From a virus: 41,830 nt of DNA. Positions within the stretch are counted from its first letter, which is position 1; every line of letters starts with the position of its first letter. Positions 2,382 through 26,578 of this stretch are shown one piece after another. The DNA lies in IMG/VR virus record IMGVR_UViG_3300044680_000165, positions 1 to 41,830 of that record; one strand, written 5' to 3'. The position numbers and the translations under genes are program-made. The notes under the pieces were generated by a model. That model was not told where the DNA came from and ran no database searches. It saw only the letters and a program-made list of their open reading frames with translations.

Positions 2382-3589
2382 TAGGTTCGCCCGGTGGCAA
2401 CCATATAACTCACGAAGTCAATGTTGATCTGCTTTGTGGCCGTGGTGCGGGTGAGCAATTGAATAAATGGTGCCATCTCCCCGGTGTCAACATGGGTCGC
2501 AATCGACGTGTCCGCGCTCCCGTCAATCGAAAACAAAATCGTGCCCGCCGTGATTGAGCGAATGCGGATATGGTGCCAATTGGTATCGCCCGCAACCGCC
2601 GACGCGGAGATCGTGCTAGTGCTTGCCGATCGCGTCTCGAAAGTGAAATCGGTGTCCGATGCGCCTGTATCGTAACGCACCCAAAAACCTGCCGTGGGGG
2701 GATCGGCGGTTTGACCGGAAGCGATTGTAAATCCGGCACGCATGGAAATATTCGCGGCAGAAGGAAGCCAAAAAACATAATTAAACTCCCAGCCCGCATT
2801 GGCTCCGAGTTTGCCAATCATCACGGCAGCGACGGTACCCCCAACTTTGGTGAGAACGACTCCTTGGCCCGTGGTCGCTCCCGAGTTGGTTTCTAACCCA
2901 TAAACTCCAGGGTGTATGAAGGTTGTGGAGGTTCCGTTTCCCCCGGCGGTGTTTGCCCCGGCGCTTCCAATCCCGAAGCCCCGCCATTCCGTGTCGCTGA
3001 TAATTTCCGTGCCCGTTGTTGCGATAGACGCGAGATTGCTGAAACTCATAAAATCGTCCCGGAACCCCGCTACCGAGACCCCCTTAAAATTGTTGTCAAC
3101 GTAGGCGGTGGTCGCCAGTTGGTTCGAATTGCTAAAAGCCGCTGCCGTAGGGCCAGTCGGAATTCCCGTAAATGCAGGACTGTTGACCGGCGCCCCGCCA
3201 CCAGATGTGACAATCCCATTTGCGCTGATGACTGGAGTCGCCGTCAGGTAAACGGTCGCTGTGCCGGAAGAATAAGCACTGACGCACAGAAGAAATGAAT
3301 CGTATCCGCCGACCCCCGCCGAATAGATGCCCGCCGTAGTGATAGTTGACTGCAAAGTGCTCGACGTCGAGGGAGTCACTTGGGAATTTTGCGGCGATTG
3401 GCCAGCAATCGACACTTCGGGTTGCAAAGTCGCCGAAAATGTTCCAGTAACTTGAATCCCCACGGTGGCATTTGCGGTCGCGCCGATAATCGCACACGGA
3501 CTGGTCGAGGCGTTCAGGGTGAACGGCCCCGCTTTCGATTGCGCGAAAAGCGAAGCCGAAAACAGTAAGAAAAACAGAAGTCGGCGCAT
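2381..3589 (-). CDS. Tail fibre / adhesin with Sec leader and jelly-roll C-terminus
   Basis: 402 residues. I chose ATG 3589 over a further upstream start because a good Shine-Dalgarno (GAAAGGAACCT) precedes it and it begins 10 bases after the previous stop. Residues 1-17 (MRRLLFFLLFSASLFAQ) look like a signal peptide. A Gly/Ser/Thr-rich stalk follows, with the fibre motif LATTAYVDNNF (about residue 160). The last ~200 residues alternate beta strands (for example WHHIRIRSITAGTILFSIDG), as in concanavalin/LamG-like carbohydrate-binding folds. The fold is inferred from pattern only. It probably binds a host surface glycan and is co-transcribed with the fibre genes on both sides. Confidence 0.78.
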   Translation of the reverse strand: MRRLLFFLLFSASLFAQSKAGPFTLNASTSPCAIIGATANATVGIQVTGTFSATLQPEVSIAGQSPQNSQVTPSTSSTLQSTITTAGIYSAGVGGYDSFLLCVSAYSSGTATVYLTATPVISANGIVTSGGGAPVNSPAFTGIPTGPTAAAFSNSNQLATTAYVDNNFKGVSVAGFRDDFMSFSNLASIATTGTEIISDTEWRGFGIGSAGANTAGGNGTSTTFIHPGVYGLETNSGATTGQGVVLTKVGGTVAAVMIGKLGANAGWEFNYVFWLPSAANISMRAGFTIASGQTADPPTAGFWVRYDTGASDTDFTFETRSASTSTISASAVAGDTNWHHIRIRSITAGTILFSIDGSADTSIATHVDTGEMAPFIQLLTRTTATKQINIDFVSYMVATGRT

Positions 3590-3599
3590 AGGTTCCTTT

Positions 3600-5078
3600 C
3601 TAATTACTTGGGAAGATCGTGACATCCAGCCAGGTATCGGTACCATTCGGAGTTCCGTCATTGCTCGATTTGTTGACCGTCACTCCGCCGGAATTCGAGG
3701 CGTTGATCCGGTTGGCGAAGGTGATGACAGCACTATTGGCATAAGTTCCGGGAGAAAATGCGCCTCCATTGGCACCGTACTGAGTGGCCGAGCCAGTCAC
3801 CAAGACTTGCGAGGTCGCAAATTGGTTCGTTCCATCGTCAATCCAGAGCACATCGACCCCGGAATTTGAGCTGGTGATGTAAGCCCCATAGCTCACCATC
3901 GCACGGCAAGGACACCCGGCAGAGGGCATGGTCACGGCATGCGAAAGATAAGTCGTTGCCGTGTTCGCTGAGATCGTCTGATTGCCGCTCAGAGTCGTGA
4001 GTGAGTGGGCTTGCACCGCAACCGGTGTCGCGCAGGTAATCGGCAAAGTTCCAGTGAAAGTGAAGAATGTTCCCGATCCGCAGGTCGGCAGAGTGGAAGC
4101 TACGGGATCGGCGCTCGTCTGGCCGACGGGAATTTGATTGACGCCCAATAAAAGTCCGGTGATTGCATTTCCATTGCCTTCGTTCAGGGCCAGAGAATGA
4201 GCAGCCGCGCCAGGATTGACATTCCCCGATCCACCCGGGCCGACCGTCTGGCCGTTATAAGTCACCTGGAAAACCGAAGTACACGATCCCGCCGAAGTCA
4301 GTTGTTGATTCGCATCGGTACAAACTGCGGAATTCGCCGTCAGAGCAAAATCGAAGAGACTGGGAACCGCCATGGCTCCGGTTGAGTAGGTTGCGGGGCC
4401 GGTGGCAATCGCTGTGGTTCCATTCCAGATGAAAGTTTGTTGGGTGACACAATTGGCCGTCGAGCAGATCGTCGCTCCGCCAACCGAATTGGCAGGCCAG
4501 GTGAAGGTGTGCCCGCCGGAACCATCCTGGGTGATTTCCCAAGTCACGATTCCGGGTGGGATAATTCCGACTGCCGTCAAAGGCTGGCTCGAAGCATTCC
4601 CAGTCAGAGTGATCTCGAAAAGTTGGTTCTGGGCCGAAATCTGAAAAACTGGTGTTGTGGAATAAGGAACAATCGTGGTCAGAGTGGAAGTGCCCCCGCC
4701 GATACCATTGACGGTGTACAGAGTGGCCCCGGAAAAGCAGTTCGTTCCGCCCGAGGATTTGACGCGGAAACTATAAGCAACTCCCGCCTGAATCCAGATG
4801 TTCGCCGAACCTCCGCCAGATAAAACGACTGGATTGGAGTTCGCGGTCGCTCCGGTGTAGTCGGTATAGGTTGTCAGGGGTGTGGTTGAATTGCTTTGGT
4901 AGGTAAAGATGCACCCAAAGGCTAAAGGCCTTCCCGATTGATCGAAAATCTGGAGTTGTGGGTAAGGCGAGATGATGACCGTGGTTTGCCCATTGCAAAC
5001 TGCTGAAAACACGAGCAGTAAAGCCAGAAGGTAACCGGCGATTTTGTTACTTACGTGATATTGTCGGAGTTTTGTCAT
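3600..5078 (-). CDS. Tail fibre / adhesin with head-binding-like N-domain and Sec leader
   Basis: 492 residues, first adhesin after the ejection proteins. A hydrophobic leader (IAGYLLALLLVFSAVCNGQ) is followed by a domain with the pattern PYPQLQIFDQSGRPLAFGC then TTPLTTYTDYTGATANSNP. This 'TTPL.TYTD..G...NPV.L...G.A.IW' signature is known from the N-terminal domains of many podovirus and siphovirus fibre proteins and probably anchors this one. The rest is Ser/Thr/Gly-rich beta repeat ending in a compact beta domain (HAVTMPSAGCPCRAMVSYGA onward). It may serve as the base to which the two following adhesins attach. A leader on such a fibre is odd. Confidence 0.8.
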   Translation of the reverse strand: MTKLRQYHVSNKIAGYLLALLLVFSAVCNGQTTVIISPYPQLQIFDQSGRPLAFGCIFTYQSNSTTPLTTYTDYTGATANSNPVVLSGGGSANIWIQAGVAYSFRVKSSGGTNCFSGATLYTVNGIGGGTSTLTTIVPYSTTPVFQISAQNQLFEITLTGNASSQPLTAVGIIPPGIVTWEITQDGSGGHTFTWPANSVGGATICSTANCVTQQTFIWNGTTAIATGPATYSTGAMAVPSLFDFALTANSAVCTDANQQLTSAGSCTSVFQVTYNGQTVGPGGSGNVNPGAAAHSLALNEGNGNAITGLLLGVNQIPVGQTSADPVASTLPTCGSGTFFTFTGTLPITCATPVAVQAHSLTTLSGNQTISANTATTYLSHAVTMPSAGCPCRAMVSYGAYITSSNSGVDVLWIDDGTNQFATSQVLVTGSATQYGANGGAFSPGTYANSAVITFANRINASNSGGVTVNKSSNDGTPNGTDTWLDVTIFPSN

Positions 5079-17143: not shown

Positions 17144-17311
17144 ATGAAATACAAGGTTCGGCTGCATTGCGTGAGCGAAAACTATTTTTACGATTTTATG
17201 AAGCAGTGCTTCGAGATCCGGGCTTGGTTTTACGCACAAGATAATCGGCGCGTTTTCGTGGTCATTGGCCGCCGGAACTTTGCTGAGCAGGCTGTGGATT
17301 CTGGGGAGTAG
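17144..17311 (+). CDS. Small plus-strand protein between scaffold and portal genes
   Basis: 55 residues: MKYKVRLHCVSENYFYDFMK, then an Arg/aromatic-rich part (RVFVVIGRRN). It fills the 178-base gap between the portal stop and the scaffold start and overlaps the last 50 bases of the portal gene on the other strand. Codon choice resembles the phage's real genes. The sequence suggests a small alpha/beta fold. Function unknown. Confidence 0.5.
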   Translation: MKYKVRLHCVSENYFYDFMKQCFEIRAWFYAQDNRRVFVVIGRRNFAEQAVDSGE

Positions 17312-19457
17312 GTGTCATCTGCTGGGCCTGCAAAGCTTGCTGTTGTTGGGCTAGAGCTTGCTCATGCGCCTGTTCCGATGCTTGCAAACCAGCTTCATGC
17401 GCTGCACCGTGGTTCTCCAAATAGAATTGCTTGTACATTTCCATTTCCTGCGAAGCCACGGACTGTTTGCTCGCTAAAAGCTCACCCAGCACCTTGATGT
17501 CATTCGCCAGTTGAGCCCGGAAATTTTCTCCGTCTTCCTTCATTTGCTGCTGGATGAGTTTCGTCTGCTGTTCCAACACTTTCCCGGCCCGCTCCATGTG
17601 CAAAGCCGCGAGTTCCTGCTGAGTCTGTTGCAATTGAGTTTGTAATTGAGAAACCACTGCCTGCGCTTGCGGAGGAAGATTATCGGGACTCGGCGGATCG
17701 AAAACTTCCGCGATCTGTTGACCGATAGGCCCGAGCGTGGGTCTCATGCGGATGGTCATGGCTAGAACTTTTGCGCCAGGAGTTCCGGGTTGCGGAAGGT
17801 TGGCGATATTGTCCACCATCGTGTCCGCGAAATCGTCCTGCTCTTCGCGTTCCGAGGCGTAGCTCGGCCCTGTTGAAATGGTGACATCGAAATCGCCCTT
17901 ACCGGTGTGCATGTGGTCTTCTTCCAAGCCTTGCACGTCGTAAGCATCGTCTTCATCCAAGGGATGAGAAGTGTTTCCGACTAACTGCATGGTTGACCGG
18001 GTTCCATCGGGTTTCGCAATCGGCATTTCTCGTTGGGTATCGATGATGGGAGTAATCAGGTCATTGATCTGCCATCCCATGTTGTAGAGAAAACCGTTTT
18101 CGTAGCGATCCACAAACTGGGTCGCGCCCAACTGCTCCATGTCATCGATCTTTGAAAGGGCCACGCCGGATTTTTGATTCCGTCTCTGGGCCGCGTCGGG
18201 CATGGGAGAAATCCCCATTGCGGCCTGAATTGAGCGGGTTCTGGCATCGATCGCCGTCTCCCACTCGCCAAAGTTCGGAGTCAGAGAAGTCATCGTCGGC
18301 AATGGCAAAACTTCGCCACTGGCAGCGTCGATATTCACATCCACTTCGACGTAGGGATGAGCCACTTTCGTAATCTCATCCCACGTTTCTTTGTCCGATT
18401 CGAATTGCCCTTTGTAACCAACGTAGGGAGTCTTTGGAATCAGTCCAGCGGTCTCGCATTCTCCACTCGCCAGGTAATCTAAAAGCATCTGCGGATCGCG
18501 GGCGAACCTGACCATCGAAAGCAACTGTCTTTTTGCCGTTCCGCCTTCGGTCGTCCAACGCTCGGGCCCGAAACAAGAGATGATCGGAATGCGCTTTCCA
18601 GCCCAAGGGATCTCGTCCAAAATCTCGATGCCGTTGGTCATGTATTGCGTGACTTTGGGGGTTTCAACGGCGCGTTCGCGCTTCACTTCGCCGCGCAGGT
18701 TCGTGGCTTTGGCCTCTTTCCATTCGTCTTCGGTGAAAACGATTGGCCCTTGGGCAGTTTGCACCAGCAGGAGTTTTGAGAGAGTGTTTTCTACCTTCCA
18801 GAACTCGGCAATCTGGACATATTTTTCTTTGATCCAATCGGACACACTGACATCGGTCGAATCGAGATCGTCGAAATCTGTGACTCGCGCTTTCGGATAG
18901 TCATGCTTGAATTTTTTCTTTGAAAGGAGGTCGAGAAAAAAAGCATCGGGAATATCGCTCGCGTCCGGCTGCTTGTAGTACGGGGAAATCAGAACCGTGT
19001 CTGGATTCTGTACTGGCTTAATGAGAATTTCCTGATCGAAGCTCTCCTCGTCTTTATATTCCGTGCGGATGACGGCGAATCCATAACTGCGTTCGGTCAT
19101 GGACTGGAAAGCCCCTAAGTAAATCGGCTGGGCCTGCGAACGATCTTCAATCCCCATGATGCAGGCGGAACGCTTCTTCGCGTCTTCGTCGTTGGCGCCG
19201 TTCCCTTTGGGAATCGCTTTGATGGCCCGCTTCGATTTGCGGACATTCCCGTTGACTTGAGCGAGAAACTGGTTTAGTTGATCGAGATGGATACAAGGTC
19301 TTCCTGCATCTCGACGCGCATCACGGTCTTTGTCCGACCACGGCCCGCCAGGGGAGAGCGCCCGCATGTCTTCCGCAGCTTCTTCGCGGATCTCCCGCCA
19401 AGCCTCGCGGTAGTCGGCAAAAGCATCGCGAATTTCTTTGGGTTCGGGGGCGGCCAT
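17262..19457 (-). CDS. Portal protein, P22 type
   Basis: 731 residues (P22 gp1 is 725). Family features: the N-terminal helical region with DYREAWREIREEAAEDMRAL and GRPCIHLDQLNQFLAQVNGN; the clip/wing segment AFQSMTERSYGFAVIRTEYK; DPQMLLDYLASGECETAGLI; and RRNQKSGVALSKIDDMEQLG. The end is a long Gln-rich helical barrel (ALAQQQQALQAQQMTPTPQN) like the P22 portal barrel. Twelve copies form the head vertex through which DNA is packaged and ejected. Confidence 0.9.
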   Translation of the reverse strand: MAAPEPKEIRDAFADYREAWREIREEAAEDMRALSPGGPWSDKDRDARRDAGRPCIHLDQLNQFLAQVNGNVRKSKRAIKAIPKGNGANDEDAKKRSACIMGIEDRSQAQPIYLGAFQSMTERSYGFAVIRTEYKDEESFDQEILIKPVQNPDTVLISPYYKQPDASDIPDAFFLDLLSKKKFKHDYPKARVTDFDDLDSTDVSVSDWIKEKYVQIAEFWKVENTLSKLLLVQTAQGPIVFTEDEWKEAKATNLRGEVKRERAVETPKVTQYMTNGIEILDEIPWAGKRIPIISCFGPERWTTEGGTAKRQLLSMVRFARDPQMLLDYLASGECETAGLIPKTPYVGYKGQFESDKETWDEITKVAHPYVEVDVNIDAASGEVLPLPTMTSLTPNFGEWETAIDARTRSIQAAMGISPMPDAAQRRNQKSGVALSKIDDMEQLGATQFVDRYENGFLYNMGWQINDLITPIIDTQREMPIAKPDGTRSTMQLVGNTSHPLDEDDAYDVQGLEEDHMHTGKGDFDVTISTGPSYASEREEQDDFADTMVDNIANLPQPGTPGAKVLAMTIRMRPTLGPIGQQIAEVFDPPSPDNLPPQAQAVVSQLQTQLQQTQQELAALHMERAGKVLEQQTKLIQQQMKEDGENFRAQLANDIKVLGELLASKQSVASQEMEMYKQFYLENHGAAHEAGLQASEQAHEQALAQQQQALQAQQMTPTPQNPQPAQQSSGGQ

Positions 19458-20579: not shown

Positions 20580-20882
20580 TTAGTTCTCGACTGTTTTGGT
20601 GGCAGGTTTCACGGCCGCGACTGGGGCTGCCGGTAAAGCGGCCTTGACCTGAGCGTCCAAAGCGTTGACGTTGGCCACGACGGGTTCAATCGCGGAGTCC
20701 GGGGTGCCTTGGGCTGCGATCAAAGCATCGACATCGGTGGTGAGTTGGGTGACTGCTGCGTTCAGATCGTCAATGGCTGCCATTTGTTTCTCCTGGTTTG
20801 AAATGATGAGTTTCTGGTTAGTTAAGATTTCGGCGAAGGCGTGTCGAATGATGCGCTCGAGTTCCCAGTGTTTCGGAAACAT
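20580..20882 (-). CDS. Small helical protein
   Basis: 100 residues. One long helix with heptad-like spacing (AIDDLNAAVTQLTTDVDALI), then an Ala/Pro/Val tail (AALPAAPVAAVKPATKTVEN). An internal ATG at codon 34, MAAIDDLNAAV, preceded by AGGAGAAACAA, is a likely alternative start that would give 67 residues. Probably a structural accessory protein. Confidence 0.55.
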   Translation of the reverse strand: MFPKHWELERIIRHAFAEILTNQKLIISNQEKQMAAIDDLNAAVTQLTTDVDALIAAQGTPDSAIEPVVANVNALDAQVKAALPAAPVAAVKPATKTVEN

Positions 20883-20993
20883 TCAGTCTTCCTCGTCGTC
20901 TTCGTCTCCGCCAGCCAGTACAATTCCGACGACGATTAGAAGCATGAGAAAAGCGGCACCGAAAATGACAGCGAGCACTTTTAAAGTGTCCAT
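20883..20993 (-). CDS. Single-span membrane miniprotein
   Basis: 36 residues: MDTLKVLAVIFGAAFLMLLI plus IVVGIVLAGG form one transmembrane helix, followed by an acidic tail DEDDEED. Its TGA lies just ahead of the next ATG (TGAATG). The acidic tail would face the cytoplasm or periplasm. Role unknown. Small membrane proteins within structural operons can act as accessory holins. Confidence 0.6.
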   Translation of the reverse strand: MDTLKVLAVIFGAAFLMLLIVVGIVLAGGDEDDEED

Positions 20994-21147
20994 AAATGTG
21001 CGGTTCCTTGTCTCCCTATGCTGCCATCTGGCCCCGAAGGGTTAGGTAAGAACCGGCCAGCCACCGGTTGCGGTACGATTTCCGCGTCCGCTGCCCCAGG
21101 AACCGCATGCTACGAGGCAGTTCTTCGCATAGGCAGATAAGGTGGGA

Positions 21148-21192
21148 GGGGCGGAACCGCGAAGTCGGCAAACTTCGGTGCACGTCCGCCCC
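21148..21192. other. Nested stem-loop immediately left of the insertion element
   Basis: Outer arms GGGGCGGA (21148-21155) and TCCGCCCC (21185-21192) pair perfectly; inner arms CGAAGT (21160-21165) and ACTTCG (21172-21177) also pair. No T-run follows on either strand, so it is not a classical terminator. It lies in a ~200-base region without a convincing gene. The target duplication of the insertion element starts at the next base, 21193. Confidence 0.65.
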
Positions 21193-21200
21193 CAATTTGG
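21193..21200. repeat. Target-site duplication, left copy
   Basis: CAATTTGG directly precedes the left inverted end and recurs perfectly at 23321-23328 after the right end. Eight bases is the duplication length known for IS1595-family transposition. Confidence 0.85.
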
Positions 21201-21224
21201 GGTAATAATATACTTGACTAACCA
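21201..21224 (+). repeat. Left terminal inverted repeat
   Basis: Begins GGTAATAATATAC and ends CTAACCA. It pairs with the reverse complement of 23297-23320 at 20 of 24 positions; mismatches at positions 5, 14, 15 and 17. Confidence 0.85.
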
Positions 21225-21242
21225 TGATTTCCTTGCTATTGT
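21214..21242 (+). promoter_or_regulatory. Strong promoter in the left IS end, leaderless spacing
   Basis: TTGACT (21214-21219), 17-base spacer, TATTGT (21237-21242), then GTGGTC and ATG 21249. Transcription should begin at or beside the start codon. The -35 lies inside the inverted repeat, so transposase binding could repress it. Confidence 0.65.
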
Positions 21243-21248
21243 GTGGTC

Positions 21249-21518
21249 ATGGGCGAAACCGACGATCTACGCGATCAACTCTTTGGCATCCTCGAAGATT
21301 TACTTAGCGAGAATCTTGTCCTGATTTCTGCGATGCGGATAGCGAAAGACTATCTTCCCTTGGAAGCCCGACAGGAGATAGACCGCTTTGTTCAGGGCGC
21401 ATTATCCGATCCAGAGCGGCTCGAAGCTGCGGAGCGTGCCGTCGTTCAATATAAGAGTCAACCTCTCGCGCAAACTCTCGCAGAACTCCGGCAACAGAAT
21501 TGGAAGAAAGGGAATTAA
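21249..21518 (+). CDS. First passenger gene of the IS element, unknown function
   Basis: 89 residues from ATG 21249, chosen because it lies six bases after the -10; a GTG two codons upstream overlaps the -10 spacing. Mostly helical and acidic (GETDDLRDQLFGILEDLLSE, LPLEARQEIDRFVQGALSDP). It stops two bases before the transposase-fragment ATG, whose Shine-Dalgarno it contains. No family recognised. It may be a regulator of the element. Confidence 0.65.
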   Translation: MGETDDLRDQLFGILEDLLSENLVLISAMRIAKDYLPLEARQEIDRFVQGALSDPERLEAAERAVVQYKSQPLAQTLAELRQQNWKKGN

Positions 21519-21520
21519 GC

Positions 21521-21976
21521 ATGGGCAATACTCCTAAAACATTGCAAGCGGCGATTCGACATTTCAGCGATGAGCAGGTCTGCATCGACACAGTAGCCGC
21601 ACTCCGATGGAAGAATGGCCCTGAGTGCCCTGCTTGCGGCCATAAGGAACACTACTACCTGAAAACCCAAAAACGCTGGAAGTGCAAAGAGTGCTACAAG
21701 CAGTTCACTGTAAAGCTTGGCACCATCTTTGAGGCCTCGCCCATCTCGCTCGACAAATGGTTGCTCGCGCTCTGGATGCTGGTCAATTGCAAGAATGGTG
21801 TGAGCAGCTATGAAGTAGCTCGCGCTTTGGGAATCACTCAGAAATCCGCATGGTTTGTCATGCACCGCCTGAGATTCGCTTTGCAGCGCGGTTCGCTGGT
21901 CAAGATGGGCGGTGGTGGCGGGAAGCGCGGGCCGAAGCCCGCTTCTTCCGTTTCCGCTTCTCGGAATCAAGCATAG
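21521..21976 (+). CDS. Truncated IS1595-family transposase (zinc ribbon + HTH only)
   Basis: 151 residues with AAAGGGA before ATG 21521. Residues ~34-70 form the IS1595 zinc ribbon: CPACG (about 38-42), then CKEC (about 59-62) followed by YKQFTVKLGTIFEASPISLD. An HTH segment follows (WLLALWMLVNCKNGVSSYEV, ALGITQKSAWFVMHRLRFAL). A complete family member then continues into a DDE(H)-type catalytic domain with a VDET(F/Y)IGG motif. Here the frame ends in unrelated residues (GGGGGKRGPKPASSVSASRN) that lie antisense to the 59-residue gene. The catalytic domain is absent, so the protein may only bind the element's ends. Confidence 0.85.
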   Translation: MGNTPKTLQAAIRHFSDEQVCIDTVAALRWKNGPECPACGHKEHYYLKTQKRWKCKECYKQFTVKLGTIFEASPISLDKWLLALWMLVNCKNGVSSYEVARALGITQKSAWFVMHRLRFALQRGSLVKMGGGGGKRGPKPASSVSASRNQA

Positions 21977-22079
21977 CTTTGAGTTCCGAGTGCGGGACAG
22001 ACAATACTTTTTTAAGGGCATTTTCAAAATTCGCGTACTCGCCCGTCTCATTCTTGGCGGAAGGTTTTGGGTGAGCCAC
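21900..22079 (-). CDS. Small basic protein of the IS cargo, possible antitoxin-like partner
   Basis: 59 residues on the opposite strand from GTG 22079, with GAGGG upstream and its own promoter at 22102-22131. The core ETGEYANFENALKKVLSVPH SELKAML matches the look of small proteins frequent in acidobacteria and cyanobacteria ('F..AL..VLSVPHSE.K..L..E'), often near PIN-type toxins. A Lys/Arg-rich tail follows (EKRKRKKRASARASRHH). Its 3' end overlaps the transposase fragment's end by 77 bases, marking where the catalytic part was lost. The antitoxin role is a guess. Confidence 0.6.
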   Translation of the reverse strand: MAHPKPSAKNETGEYANFENALKKVLSVPHSELKAMLDSEKRKRKKRASARASRHHRPS

Positions 22080-22095
22080 TTCTGTAAGCCCTCTG

Positions 22096-22926
22096 ATGGA
22101 GGGTATAGCAGTGGTGTGCTCACAAAGTCAACTCGGTAATACTGAACGGATACTGGAAATGCTCCGTATTGATGCGCGACGGTTTGCGGCTATGGTCGAC
22201 GTCCTTCTCGATTTAGCTCCCGGATTCAACATGGAGGGGGAAGGTGCGGTAGCAAAGGATGAAGCCGAAAATAAATTCGGGGCGCTCATTGCCTCTTGGA
22301 ATGAACTCGGCTGGCCAGAATTAGCCGCCCAAGCCGAACGTTTGCAGCGCCGTGCTCTTGCTGGAGAAATAGGCAAGCACATGCAAGAGATGACAAGCGA
22401 CCTACGCGAGGCATTTCTGGAGAGAGTGGAAAGAGATGCACTTTTAGTGATTCCTTCTCTGCAACGCAAATATTACGATCAAACTGAGCCGCTTTTCGGC
22501 AAGGTAGTGGCCGATGCGCTTCCTGAATCCGCCCAAGAAATCTCCGAAGCTGGAAAATGTTTTGCTCTGGATCGCTGGACAGCCTGCGTGTTTCATCTGA
22601 TGCGTGCCCTAGAATTGAGCTTACATCGTATCGCCAAACAACTTGGAACATCTTTCCCAGCCCCAATAGAACTCCAGGATTGGGGAACTATTGTCAAGAA
22701 AATCGACGCTCGCATTCGAGAGCTAGAGCAACAATCTCGCGGTCAACAAAAAGCCGAGGACTTACGGTTCTACTCATCACTCAATCTAGAATTTGAATGG
22801 TTCAAGAATGCATGGAGGAACAGCATTTCTCACGCTAGGGAATCTTACAATGAACAAGAGGCAGCAAACATTCTGAACCATGTCGAGAAATTTCTAAATG
22901 AAATAGCCAATCGCCCGACGATATAG
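22096..22926 (+). CDS. HEPN-like protein, candidate abortive-infection RNase, IS passenger
   Basis: 276 residues, helical throughout. The C-terminal third shows KCFALDRWTACVFHLMRALE (about 154-173), then W-RNSISH (241-246) and EAANILNHVEKFLNEIA. RNSISH fits the R(N/D/H)xxxH signature of HEPN ribonucleases, with the Arg and His in the place where HEPN toxins keep their active site. The 'fall in the number of residents'-type N-terminal region (15-140) is unassigned helical sequence. Proteins of this look occur as standalone defence genes. The true start could be a later ATG (codon 22), since no strong Shine-Dalgarno precedes 22096. It may guard the cell against competing phages; this is untested inference. 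Confidence 0.6.
   Translation: MEGIAVVCSQSQLGNTERILEMLRIDARRFAAMVDVLLDLAPGFNMEGEGAVAKDEAENKFGALIASWNELGWPELAAQAERLQRRALAGEIGKHMQEMTSDLREAFLERVERDALLVIPSLQRKYYDQTEPLFGKVVADALPESAQEISEAGKCFALDRWTACVFHLMRALELSLHRIAKQLGTSFPAPIELQDWGTIVKKIDARIRELEQQSRGQQKAEDLRFYSSLNLEFEWFKNAWRNSISHARESYNEQEAANILNHVEKFLNEIANRPTI
22102..22131 (-). promoter_or_regulatory. Promoter for the 59-residue minus-strand gene
   Basis: On the minus strand TTGACT (22126-22131), 18-base spacer, TATACC (22102-22107), 23 bases before GTG 22079. It lies inside the first codons of the HEPN-like gene, so the two would interfere. Confidence 0.5.
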
Positions 22927-22941
22927 AAAGAGAGCACGGAA

Positions 22942-23259
22942 TTGGAAATCGACAAGTACGTACTCATTAAGTTATTGGAGGCATTCGTTGACAACTCGGA
23001 AGTCTTGCAGCGCAGGTTGATGCTCTACCAGACACTTTTTGCCGCTGCTTGCAAGTCTAAGGGTCTCGACGAAGCGCAAATGCACAAAGTTGTGGAACGG
23101 GGTCGGGCGGAAATGGCTCCGAAGATAAGTGCTGCGTGTCGAGAAGATTATCTAGGCCTTCTGGCCAAACTTCCGCAGATAGTCGAATTGCTTGACGCAA
23201 ATCGAGACGAGGCCTTTCGACTTCTGAAAGAATGGACTCCAAAAGGCCCACCAAATTAG
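22942..23259 (+). CDS. Small helical protein downstream of the HEPN-like gene
   Basis: 105 residues from TTG 22942, 15 bases after the previous stop, with GAGAG upstream. Alpha-helical and charged (DKYVLIKLLEAFVDNSEVLQ, RAEMAPKISAACREDYLGLL), ending DANRDEAFRLLKEWTPKGPPN. It is probably co-transcribed with the HEPN-like gene and could be its partner or an immunity protein. No family recognised. Confidence 0.55.
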   Translation: MEIDKYVLIKLLEAFVDNSEVLQRRLMLYQTLFAAACKSKGLDEAQMHKVVERGRAEMAPKISAACREDYLGLLAKLPQIVELLDANRDEAFRLLKEWTPKGPPN

Positions 23260-23296
23260 GCTGCCCTGTCACGGTAATTCCTTTCATATCACAGTT

Positions 23297-23320
23297 TGGT
23301 TAGCCGTGTATATTAGTACC
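23297..23320 (-). repeat. Right terminal inverted repeat
   Basis: Read on the minus strand it begins GGTACTAATATAC and ends CTAACCA, matching 20 of the 24 bases of the left end. The target duplication follows at 23321. Confidence 0.85.
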
Positions 23321-23328
23321 CAATTTGG
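23321..23328. repeat. Target-site duplication, right copy
   Basis: CAATTTGG, identical to 21193-21200. Confidence 0.85.
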
Positions 23329-23345
23329 CTTGTCAGGCCGGAAGC

Positions 23346-24371
23346 TTAAGAAGCAACAATCATCTTGCCGCCGGTCGCCACCCCTGCCACTCCGCCCATA
23401 TAGACCTGAGCTTTCGTAGCCGTGTCACCAATCGCGGTAGCGATCCAGTTGCAGGTGATATCGAGCAACACGATTCCACCCGAAGAAGCCACGATGTGAA
23501 ACAGCGCTGCGAGAATCGTCGAACCGGATCCCAAGGCGTTCATAAACATGCAACCCTTGAAATAGGTGTAGCGATCCAAGGCGGAAGCGTTCGCGGCCAA
23601 TAGAATGTATTGCAGGCCGTCAGAGGAATCAATCGGGAAAGTGCACTGCTCGAAAATGTTCCGCGCCGTACCGCCGCTGATCTCGACCGAGGAATTGGCA
23701 TTGGTTCGTTGAATCGTGTCGATGCCGATGTTGCAGTGCGAGAAAAGGTTCTCCCCGGCGCTGATGAGCAAATTCCGGGAACCGGCATCTGCGGAAGCTG
23801 TGGTATCGCCCATGCCTTCGAAATCGCAATTGACAAAGGCATTGCGCTGCCCGGAAACCGTCATACAGATCGCCGCGGCGATACCCGTCTGTCCCGCGCC
23901 GGCACCTTGGAACCAACTGAGATTCGAGAACAAGCAGCCATTGCCAGAGACCGTAAAGAAATTTGCGGTGACGGTCAATCCAGCTGTCGTGGGGAATGCA
24001 ATTCTGGCACGTTGGGAAACTGCCGAAGGCGCGCAAATCCCGAATAAGTGCGCGGCATTTTTCGACCAGGTAAAGCTCGTGATACGAGCCGAGCCGGAAG
24101 CCTGCCCATTGCCGATTAGAACCAGAGCGTCATTGTATCCCGAACGCAGGAGGTTATAGCCTGCAAGCAAGGTTTGCACCGGCCCTTGCCCCGCGACTCC
24201 AACGGAGGCTGGGAGTTGACCGTTATTGGTATCCAGTCCGTTGACCGGATCGCAATAGAACACATTGCCGGTGACTCCGAATCCGCGTTGGTTGATGGCA
24301 TTCTGGATCAGTTGCGCGGCGGGAATGGTGAAAGCTCCGAACTGGGTGATGCCCATTGGCGTGCTGCTCAT
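23346..24371 (-). CDS. Beta-helix (pectate-lyase-like) virion protein
   Basis: 341 residues. It reads as parallel beta-helix rungs: GNGCLFSNLSWFQGAGAGQT, GQRNAFVNCDFEGMGDTTAS, GENLFSHCNIGIDTIQRTNA, RNIFEQCTFPIDSSDGLQYI, with 'N/F..C.F' turns. The N-terminal part (FYCDPVNGLDTNNGQLPASV) is a metal-binding-like cap found in similar phage proteins. This type occurs on virions as spike, decoration or head-fibre protein. Its place between terminase and portal, not with the other adhesins, suggests a head-associated role. I see no obvious catalytic residue set. Confidence 0.75.
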   Translation of the reverse strand: MSSTPMGITQFGAFTIPAAQLIQNAINQRGFGVTGNVFYCDPVNGLDTNNGQLPASVGVAGQGPVQTLLAGYNLLRSGYNDALVLIGNGQASGSARITSFTWSKNAAHLFGICAPSAVSQRARIAFPTTAGLTVTANFFTVSGNGCLFSNLSWFQGAGAGQTGIAAAICMTVSGQRNAFVNCDFEGMGDTTASADAGSRNLLISAGENLFSHCNIGIDTIQRTNANSSVEISGGTARNIFEQCTFPIDSSDGLQYILLAANASALDRYTYFKGCMFMNALGSGSTILAALFHIVASSGGIVLLDITCNWIATAIGDTATKAQVYMGGVAGVATGGKMIVAS

Positions 24372-25054: not shown

Positions 25055-26578
25055 TTAACCCCACGCCGAATAAGTCTTCGGCTTCGATCTTTGCATGCTC
25101 GAGGGTTTCGGCGGCGCCACCGCCTGCGCCCAGGTCAGAACAAACGCATCCGCATCATCCGGGCTGGCTTCGCCGCGCTTCTGAATTTCCTGTTTGGATT
25201 CGATGACCAGCTTGCCAGAATTATTGCTGTGATAGCCCGGAATCGCCAACTGGGTTCCCACGCGATATTGCTCTGGTAAATGATCGTCTTTCGGTAAAGC
25301 TCCTAACAGCAGCCATTCTTTCGCTTTCATGTACATATAGGCCCGCATGTTGAGGCAGTGAAGATCGGGGCTTGCGCCGCCGAAGTTCACTTCATAAACA
25401 TTGGTGAAGCCCAAAGCTCTGAGTCTTGAAACAATCACAGCACCGAAAGCCGAGTCCACGAACATCGCCGCGATCTTGCGACCGGGCCGCTGGTCTCTCA
25501 AAAGCTCTGCCGCAATCCCGACCCGTTGCGAACGATCAGGATCATGCTCCCCCGGGATGCGAATCGGTTTCAGCTCAGGCAAATTCCCATTCAACCCTTG
25601 CCGAAAGCGAATGACGTTCCAAGCTTTTCCTCCACCGGATACATCGAAGCCTGCAATGATTGGTTCATCCGGCATCGCAATTTGAATTCTCGTTCTGGCC
25701 GCATCAATCCGGCCTTTGTCGATGTATTGGAGTTCAGAAGCTGACGGCGGATAGCCGAGAACGCGGACTTTGAAAGTATCGCTATCCTGTCCATAATCCG
25801 CTTCGATTTGCCGGATGTATTCCTTGTTTGTGAAACGGCTGGTGCGGGAATCGACTCTGCGGTGGTTCCACCGTTCCGCGAGATCGCCGAAGCAGATTTT
25901 GTAAAACTCGCCAGTATTTCTAATCATCTGGCCCCAGGCAAACATCATGGGCTCGCCGTCGGTCAGCCCTCCATAGGCTGTGGCGTAGATCTTGTCCGGC
26001 ACGTCGCTGGCTTCATCGAACAAGTACCAGGAAGTCGAAGTCCGCGCATGCTGACCGGCGAAACTCTGGGCATTCTCGGCCTTACAAGATTGGGCCTGGA
26101 CTTTCCAAGTGTCGGGGAATTGCTTGTGATAAATGCCGCGCGATTGGATGTCAAACCAGTGCCCCGCGATGGAAAGTTTCGTCCAGTATTGAATCGCGGC
26201 CCAAGTTCGTTCTTCGAGTTGCTGGAAACTGCCGGCGGTTACGGTGCCGATGGAATGAGGTCTTGTGGAGAGTATCCAGTCGGTGATCCACGCTCCCATT
26301 GCCGACTTCCCGGTACCGTGACCACTCGATTCGGCCATGCGAATCGGCATAACGGGATTGCTGCCATCGAACTTACGTGCCCGGACTTCCGCGCCCAAAG
26401 ATTTGAGGAATTCGATCTGGTTTTCGTCGGGGCCAGGTTCATTCTCAAGCGGGCCCGGTTCGCCCCAAGGATATGCGAATTTTACGAAACCGAACGGATC
26501 GGCGTAGAAGTTTGAGAGTTCTTCCGCCAGTTGCAAATCAACGCTAACGGGCCGCTCTAAGAGACTAGCCACGGGCAC
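25055..26578 (-). CDS. terL: Terminase large subunit
   Basis: 507 residues (P22 gp2 is 499). ATPase: Walker A SSGHGTGKS (84-92) and Walker B WYLFDEASD (184-192), with the catalytic Glu after the Asp. RNase H-like nuclease: GFDVSG (Asp312), MFVDSAFG (Asp375) and SPDDADAFVLTW (about 472-483), which supply the metal-binding acids. It translocates DNA into the procapsid through the portal and cuts at headful. It overlaps the small subunit gene by 14 bases. Confidence 0.93.
   Translation of the reverse strand: MPVASLLERPVSVDLQLAEELSNFYADPFGFVKFAYPWGEPGPLENEPGPDENQIEFLKSLGAEVRARKFDGSNPVMPIRMAESSGHGTGKSAMGAWITDWILSTRPHSIGTVTAGSFQQLEERTWAAIQYWTKLSIAGHWFDIQSRGIYHKQFPDTWKVQAQSCKAENAQSFAGQHARTSTSWYLFDEASDVPDKIYATAYGGLTDGEPMMFAWGQMIRNTGEFYKICFGDLAERWNHRRVDSRTSRFTNKEYIRQIEADYGQDSDTFKVRVLGYPPSASELQYIDKGRIDAARTRIQIAMPDEPIIAGFDVSGGGKAWNVIRFRQGLNGNLPELKPIRIPGEHDPDRSQRVGIAAELLRDQRPGRKIAAMFVDSAFGAVIVSRLRALGFTNVYEVNFGGASPDLHCLNMRAYMYMKAKEWLLLGALPKDDHLPEQYRVGTQLAIPGYHSNNSGKLVIESKQEIQKRGEASPDDADAFVLTWAQAVAPPKPSSMQRSKPKTYSAWG

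Follow-up and report, generated by a model that had tools for sequence, protein, structure and literature searches.

A cargo-bearing IS1595 element with a truncated transposase in a P22-like soil phage, and the related elements of Acidobacteria and viral contigs

The DNA analysed here, referred to as the window, is the full length of an IMG/VR virus record (IMGVR_UViG_3300044680_000165, 41,830 bp), and coordinates are window positions unless another locus is named. An insertion sequence (IS) element of the IS1595 family was found at 21201–23320 (2,120 bp). It is very probably a non-autonomous, cargo-bearing transposon, close to a mobile insertion cassette (MIC), that a P22-like soil phage acquired from the acidobacterial mobilome. 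Its ends, target duplication, family membership, internal deletion, companion gene and HEPN-type cargo were established by sequence comparison with related elements such as L009, from an Acidobacteriaceae metagenome-assembled genome (MAG; PLKR01000132.1). Between the ends lie the transposase gene and four further reading frames (P2, SM, P3 and P4), arranged as follows.

21193–21200, no strand: left copy of the target duplication, CAATTTGG, with the 8 bp typical of the IS1595 family (PMC8101967)
21201–21224, plus strand: left terminal inverted repeat, 24 bp, GGTAATAATATACTTGACTAACCA, from its 20/24 match to the right end and the consensus of 57 elements
21214–21242, plus strand: putative promoter, TTGACT-17-TATTGT with an extended −10, its −35 inside the left end
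21249–21518, plus strand: P2, orphan open reading frame (ORF) of 89 amino acids (aa) that follows the left end and precedes the transposase, additional cargo
21521–21976, plus strand: truncated IS1595 transposase, 151 aa, with the zinc ribbon and helix-turn-helix half and without the DDE half; residues after about 135 are read from the SM gene
21900–22079, minus strand: SM, companion gene for a small basic protein of 59 aa, GTG start, tail to tail with the transposase and with a homologue in 51 of 57 elements
21905–21922, no strand: deletion junction, a G-rich (GGCGGG-like) stretch common to both sides, located by blastn against L009
22096–22926, plus strand: P3, main cargo gene, 276 aa, HEPN-domain protein by prediction and predicted ribonuclease (RNase), with homologues as cargo and on plasmids
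22429–22926, plus strand: predicted HEPN domain of P3, with the motif R241-N-S-I-S-H246 at 22816–22833 and Foldseek matches to HEPN structures
22942–23259, plus strand: P4, second cargo gene, 105 aa, TTG start, with one homologue, 65% identical
23297–23320, minus strand: right terminal inverted repeat, 24 bp, GGTACTAATATACACGGCTAACCA, 20/24 against the left end, with TTGAC changed to ACGGC
23321–23328, no strand: right copy of the target duplication, CAATTTGG, directly outside the right end

An initial annotation, made from the sequence alone, had described inverted 24-base ends matching at 20 positions with CAATTTGG on both sides, and this arrangement was confirmed by the sequence itself, by shuffling and by 56 other loci. 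CAATTTGG alone is unremarkable, with 4 copies in the window against 3.0 expected. Since the combination of an 8/8 duplication with inverted ends matching at ≥19 of 24 positions occurred only once in 20800–23800 and in 0 of 100 dinucleotide shuffles, the ends and duplication are not a chance arrangement. In addition, the last 61 bp of the element showed 88.5% identity to the right end of L009. The assignment to an IS1595-type element also stood, given the GG start at both ends, the perfect 8-bp duplication, and the match of the 151-aa protein to PF12760 (Zn_Tnp_IS1595 zinc ribbon; E = 3.6e-14, over the cut-off), a domain of every group in the family except IS1016. The match to NF033547 (3e-11) was under the cut-off because only the start of the transposase is present. 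As in a transporter IS, genes unrelated to transposition lie inside the ends, namely P3, P4 and probably P2. The cargo proposed for this element is thus present, while the description of all genes up to the right end as unrelated did not hold for the ORF at 21900–22079 (minus strand), SM, which is a conserved companion gene of the transposon group.

The 151-aa transposase stops right before the first catalytic motif, EVEVDE in the aligned relatives, and the DDE_Tnp_IS1595 catalytic domain is absent by deletion, in agreement with the earlier view that the catalytic half was missing. Residues 5–131 are 89% identical to L009. By blastn, window positions 21533–21886 correspond to L009 99–452, and 21918–22074 to L009 1067–1232. 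The net deletion of about 580 bp took the DDE half and the final codons of the SM gene. In relatives, the complete transposase (about 320 aa) reads on into EVEVDE and the catalytic domain, and the cargo lies downstream. It had been thought that cargo stood where the DDE half should be; this was rejected, since the relatives carry their cargo behind a full-length gene and the mapped deletion removed the half by simple loss. The deletion mapping against L009 therefore places the cargo in its usual position, not in that of the catalytic half. Judged from these alignments, the element is by descent a defective member of IS1595 and is not autonomous. Perfect duplications with short transposase frames (83–191 aa) were also observed at four viral loci (L071, L075, L107, L121) and one genome locus (L046), so that transposase-defective copies are not unique to the window.

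The gene SM occupies the space between transposase and cargo in L009 as well (1055–1240). SM usually converges on the transposase, and in the closest relatives the stop codons of the two overlap or adjoin (CTAA), while in the window the native last codons (AKD) were replaced through the deletion. The protein is short, with a basic C-terminus and a core like FxxALKKVLSVPHSEI, and no convincing Pfam family was found for it. An SM profile built from the elements matched 51 segments in 145 kb of element DNA, a single one across 525 kb of flanking sequence, and nothing in shuffled DNA. As an independent test, 120 genomes of one acidobacterial family were used: SM was found in 45 of them, and a transposase of this group adjoined 27 of the 30 best SM loci. 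SM appears to be an undescribed core gene of this IS1595 group; neither it nor IS1595 passengers in phages were found in the open literature searched, outside which the defining 2009 paper falls. Since SM stays while the cargo changes, it may have a role in transposition or its control.

With the 151-aa protein as query, 52 genome loci and 65 viral loci were retrieved from genome and viral collections. Elements were accepted with ends matching at ≥17/24 and a duplication of ≥7/8, with G required at end position 1, which gave 57 elements with the window included; being seeded with the window transposase, this set describes one group and is not a survey of IS1595 at large. All 57 show matching ends and additional genes; they come from viral contigs and from soil bacteria, chiefly Acidobacteria. 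The elements are 1.0–5.9 kb long, nearly all of them 1.5–5.9 kb, and the transposase is usually 305–345 aa (about 1 kb), so that passenger DNA is the rule in the group. The commonest end is close to GGCAATAATATACTTGACTAACCA, with G at position 2 in 56 of 57 left ends and all 57 right ends. The duplications are AT-rich (70% versus 43% in the flanks). L097 and L098, viral contigs of different assemblies, were observed to share one element together with its duplication, TTCTGGAA.

In a tree of the N-terminal half of the transposase (n = 56), the window pairs with L009 (98/78) and then with L018 (96/81), and its nearest elements are acidobacterial. The virus/genome label changes 14 times on this tree, at least 9 of them forced by well-supported branches, and of the 25 viral records with elements, at least 13 match terminase or portal models; phages thus acquire this transposon group repeatedly. 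The earlier statement that mobile elements are rarely tolerated in phage late operons needs tempering, as about 25 further viral contigs hold elements of this group whose ends are complete. L009 shares with the window the order transposase, SM (minus), HEPN gene (plus), as well as matching ends and an 8/8 duplication; it differs in having a complete transposase, a HEPN protein only about 32% identical, and no P2 or P4. As judged from the relatives, the companion gene and the HEPN cargo, the group has a recurring plan, and the window is not an isolated case of cargo capture.

P3 homologues are cargo in the elements L009, L010, L023 and L060 and also occur on alphaproteobacterial plasmids. R241 and H246 are invariant in 9 of 9 homologues, with a polar residue after the arginine; an Rx4H motif of this kind marks HEPN RNases (PMC3710099). 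The C-terminal domain was modelled with a pLDDT confidence score of 79, and Foldseek placed HEPN structures at ranks 1, 3, 6, 7 and 8, the top match being 2hsb (HEPN, probability 1.00), together with 1wol (0.97), 2q00 (0.94), 4nqf and 1o3u; AbiA, Csm6 and a toxin–antitoxin complex appeared at lower ranks. By prediction only, P3 has the HEPN helical-bundle fold. With the RNases of the HEPN superfamily (DUF4145-like, PMC3710099) it shares the R-x4-H motif with its polar residue, the all-helical domain and the structural matches, and it differs in falling below the Pfam score cut-offs, in having its own N-terminal helical region and in being carried by an IS1595 element. In the 120 genomes, 22 P3-family loci were found, 11 of them adjacent to a transposase of the group and 8 bounded by complete ends with 8/8 duplications, which makes HEPN genes recurrent cargo of this IS1595 group. 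No close relatives of P3 were found in viral contigs and phages.

P4 has a single homologue in 398 genomes of the acidobacterial family, with a ratio of nonsynonymous to synonymous substitution rates (dN/dS) of 0.39 that also reflects the lineage before arrival in the phage. The homologue follows a SieB superinfection-exclusion gene (PF14163, 6.8e-06), itself preceded by an IS1595-type transposase (PF12762, 3e-37); at this locus, L201 (G075:C9, about 2747–4660), transposase, SieB homologue and P4 homologue were observed in this order on one strand. Despite the adjacent transposase, no ends with a duplication were found around SieB and the P4 homologue in G075; the two genes are probably defence cargo of another IS1595 element. 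A paralogous relationship between P2 and P4 was considered and rejected, since they gave no alignment. P2 matched no Pfam, NCBIfam or PADLOC family.

Most cargo proteins of the relatives could not be assigned to a family. Those recognised include DUF3800 (8), Panacea antitoxin (2), PIN (2), an AAA/AbiEii-like ATPase, a DNA methylase and an AlbA_2/HATPase protein, and PADLOC gave matches to AbiL, BstA and candidate systems. DUF3800 or relatives, the commonest recognisable cargo, was observed in both phage and bacterial elements (L061, L066, L079, L081, L028, L053, L097). The element at L073 (7173–8780), in a 63-kb viral contig, carries a protein with AlbA_2/Schlafen and HATPase_c_4 domains; its identification as an Argonaute (PADLOC pAgo, 1.8e-38) was rejected because Pfam gives AlbA_2 and HATPase_c_4. 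Tn7-like transposons carry defence-rich cargo with HEPN proteins among it (PMC8649781), and the cargo of the relatives resembles it in kind.

The promoter that the initial annotation saw in the element was recovered as a promoter-like site in the left end. It is the sole sigma-70-like match in 20800–23700, where shuffled sequences give 2.1, so it is weak evidence alone. Of the 57 elements, 44 retain TTGAC in the left end and 20 in the right, and left–right mismatches peak at the A of TTGAC (22 of 57), as if the −35 box of the transposase promoter were preserved in the left end only. Because TTGAC is kept far more in left than in right ends, the left end may double as a promoter for the genes behind it.

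The insert sits in a gap among phage late genes, as proposed earlier, between a 341-aa gene (23346–24371) and a 100-aa gene (20580–20882), in the region between terminase and portal. Around it, the late genes on the minus strand identify a P22-like phage, with the P22-type portal (PF16510, 1.8e-87, 17262–19457), scaffold (phrog_8865), major head protein (phrog_283) and large terminase (phrog_2, 25055–26578) together in the window. Portal, capsid and terminase were used to collect about 55 related phage loci, none of which has transposase, SM or cargo in the corresponding interval. The insertion is thus specific to this phage lineage among those sampled, and the expectation of related phages without the element was borne out. 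In L128, where the right-hand gene shows 79% identity and is kept to within 8 bp of the insertion site, about 610 bp separate it from the next conserved gene, versus 638 bp in the window without the element. The exact empty site with a single CAATTTGG was not found in related phages because the flank, the left side in L128, has diverged; a recent insertion, as suggested earlier, holds only relative to the relatives compared. A small conserved cysteine-containing gene (MAE...GWC) was observed in the interval in L128 (4293–4481), L138 (4746–4934), L143 (1985–2176), L131 (4603–4794) and L168 (2066–2260), and is not recognisable beside the element in the window. Capsid homologues were found in 5 of the 398 genomes, one on a contig of more than 660 kb, a finding in favour of Acidobacteria as the hosts of these phages.

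In the proposed mechanism, the intact ends could still be cut and joined in trans by the full-length transposase of a relative in the host, and the residual truncated transposase would at most bind ends. The left-end promoter could drive the truncated transposase together with P2, perhaps also the cargo that follows, opposite to the direction of the late genes. The HEPN protein would be an RNase, most likely in abortive-infection or toxin-type defence against competitors, or else a neutral stowaway. Several results weigh against this account. The 24-mer across the deletion junction gave no second copy of the derivative in viral contigs, so that movement in trans after the deletion is hypothetical, and the deletion may be later than the insertion. 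P2 is unexplained, with no homologue in relative elements or in the 398 genomes. For P3, the Foldseek E-values of the HEPN matches are weak (0.2–0.9); Pfam HEPN matches two P3-family members weakly (best 0.013) and DUF4145, of the same clan, matches the window P3 at 0.1, all below cut-offs; and the full-length model gave no meaningful match in the PDB, only the C-terminal domain being informative. Since the E-values are weak, the HEPN assignment rests on motif, sequence and fold together.

Among the alternatives, a wrong join of element and phage in assembly is hardly credible: the contig is metagenome-derived, yet the target duplication is perfect at both junctions, the flanking gene order is that of relatives, and the gap without the element has nearly the length seen in L128. 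It is improbable that the truncated transposase was retained as a regulator, competing for the ends, suppressing the transposition of full-length relatives and so stabilising the cargo. An intact zinc ribbon and helix-turn-helix region, 89% identical to L009, and the promoter-like site upstream would suit such a role, while the junction looks accidental, with microhomology, the protein tail is antisense readthrough of SM, and a single copy was seen.

A neutral relic has a substantial chance, if short of even, of being the right description. The element would have inserted intact, lost half of its transposase and now be drifting, with cargo useless to the phage and due to be lost. The catalytically dead transposase, the single copy of the derivative, an intergenic insertion that does little harm and the short transposases of other phage copies (L071, L075, L107, L121) are in line with this. 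It is less easily reconciled with SM and all cargo frames still being open after the deletion, with the perfect duplication and with the dN/dS of P4, although the latter belongs partly to the pre-arrival lineage. Possible too, if tentative, is a benefit to the phage, as the initial annotation suggested, in which the HEPN protein, with or without P4, would shield the infected or lysogenic host from competing phages by superinfection exclusion or abortive infection and the element would be kept by selection. The predicted fold and motif of P3, the action of HEPN proteins in defence (PMC3710099) and their occurrence as Tn7-like cargo (PMC8649781), the SieB gene before the only homologue of P4, and the DUF3800, Panacea antitoxin, PIN, AbiL-like and BstA-like matches in other elements point that way. 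Against it, P3 matches no PADLOC defence model, most cargo is without any family, and capture by this route equally fits neutral spread.

As a non-autonomous cargo-bearing transposon, the element can be compared with known systems. Passenger-carrying transporter IS have been described in the IS1595 family (Siguier, Gagnevin & Chandler 2009, as cited in PMC3129680). The window element shares with them a zinc-ribbon transposase, GG-starting ends, an 8-bp duplication and passenger genes, and differs in the deleted catalytic half, the conserved tail-to-tail small gene of the subgroup, the HEPN cargo and the phage location. MICs, mentioned in PMC3129680, likewise have IS ends and cargo without a working transposase and are presumed to be mobilised in trans; the window element, by contrast, retains the companion gene along with half of its transposase gene, and its mobilisation in trans is presumed only. 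Passenger-bearing IS elements and IS-derived cassettes are therefore known kinds (PMC3129680), while the variant, its core small gene and the association with HEPN cargo and phages are new.

A broader proposal, speculative and on balance doubtful, is that an IS1595 group with a two-gene core (transposase and SM) carries defence-type cargo of a single gene, HEPN RNases prominent among it, back and forth between Acidobacteria and their phages, and that transposase-dead derivatives persist since the cargo serves phage–phage or phage–host conflict. Large Tn7-like transposons are known carriers of defence genes, while small passenger IS of one or two genes are usually overlooked. The group described here is a small carrier that is easy to delimit and has an additional, conserved core gene; it occurs in acidobacterial genomes and many soil phages, with HEPN genes as repeated cargo. 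Such elements would offer a route for host defence genes into phages and the reverse, and defence candidates could be found between their ends.

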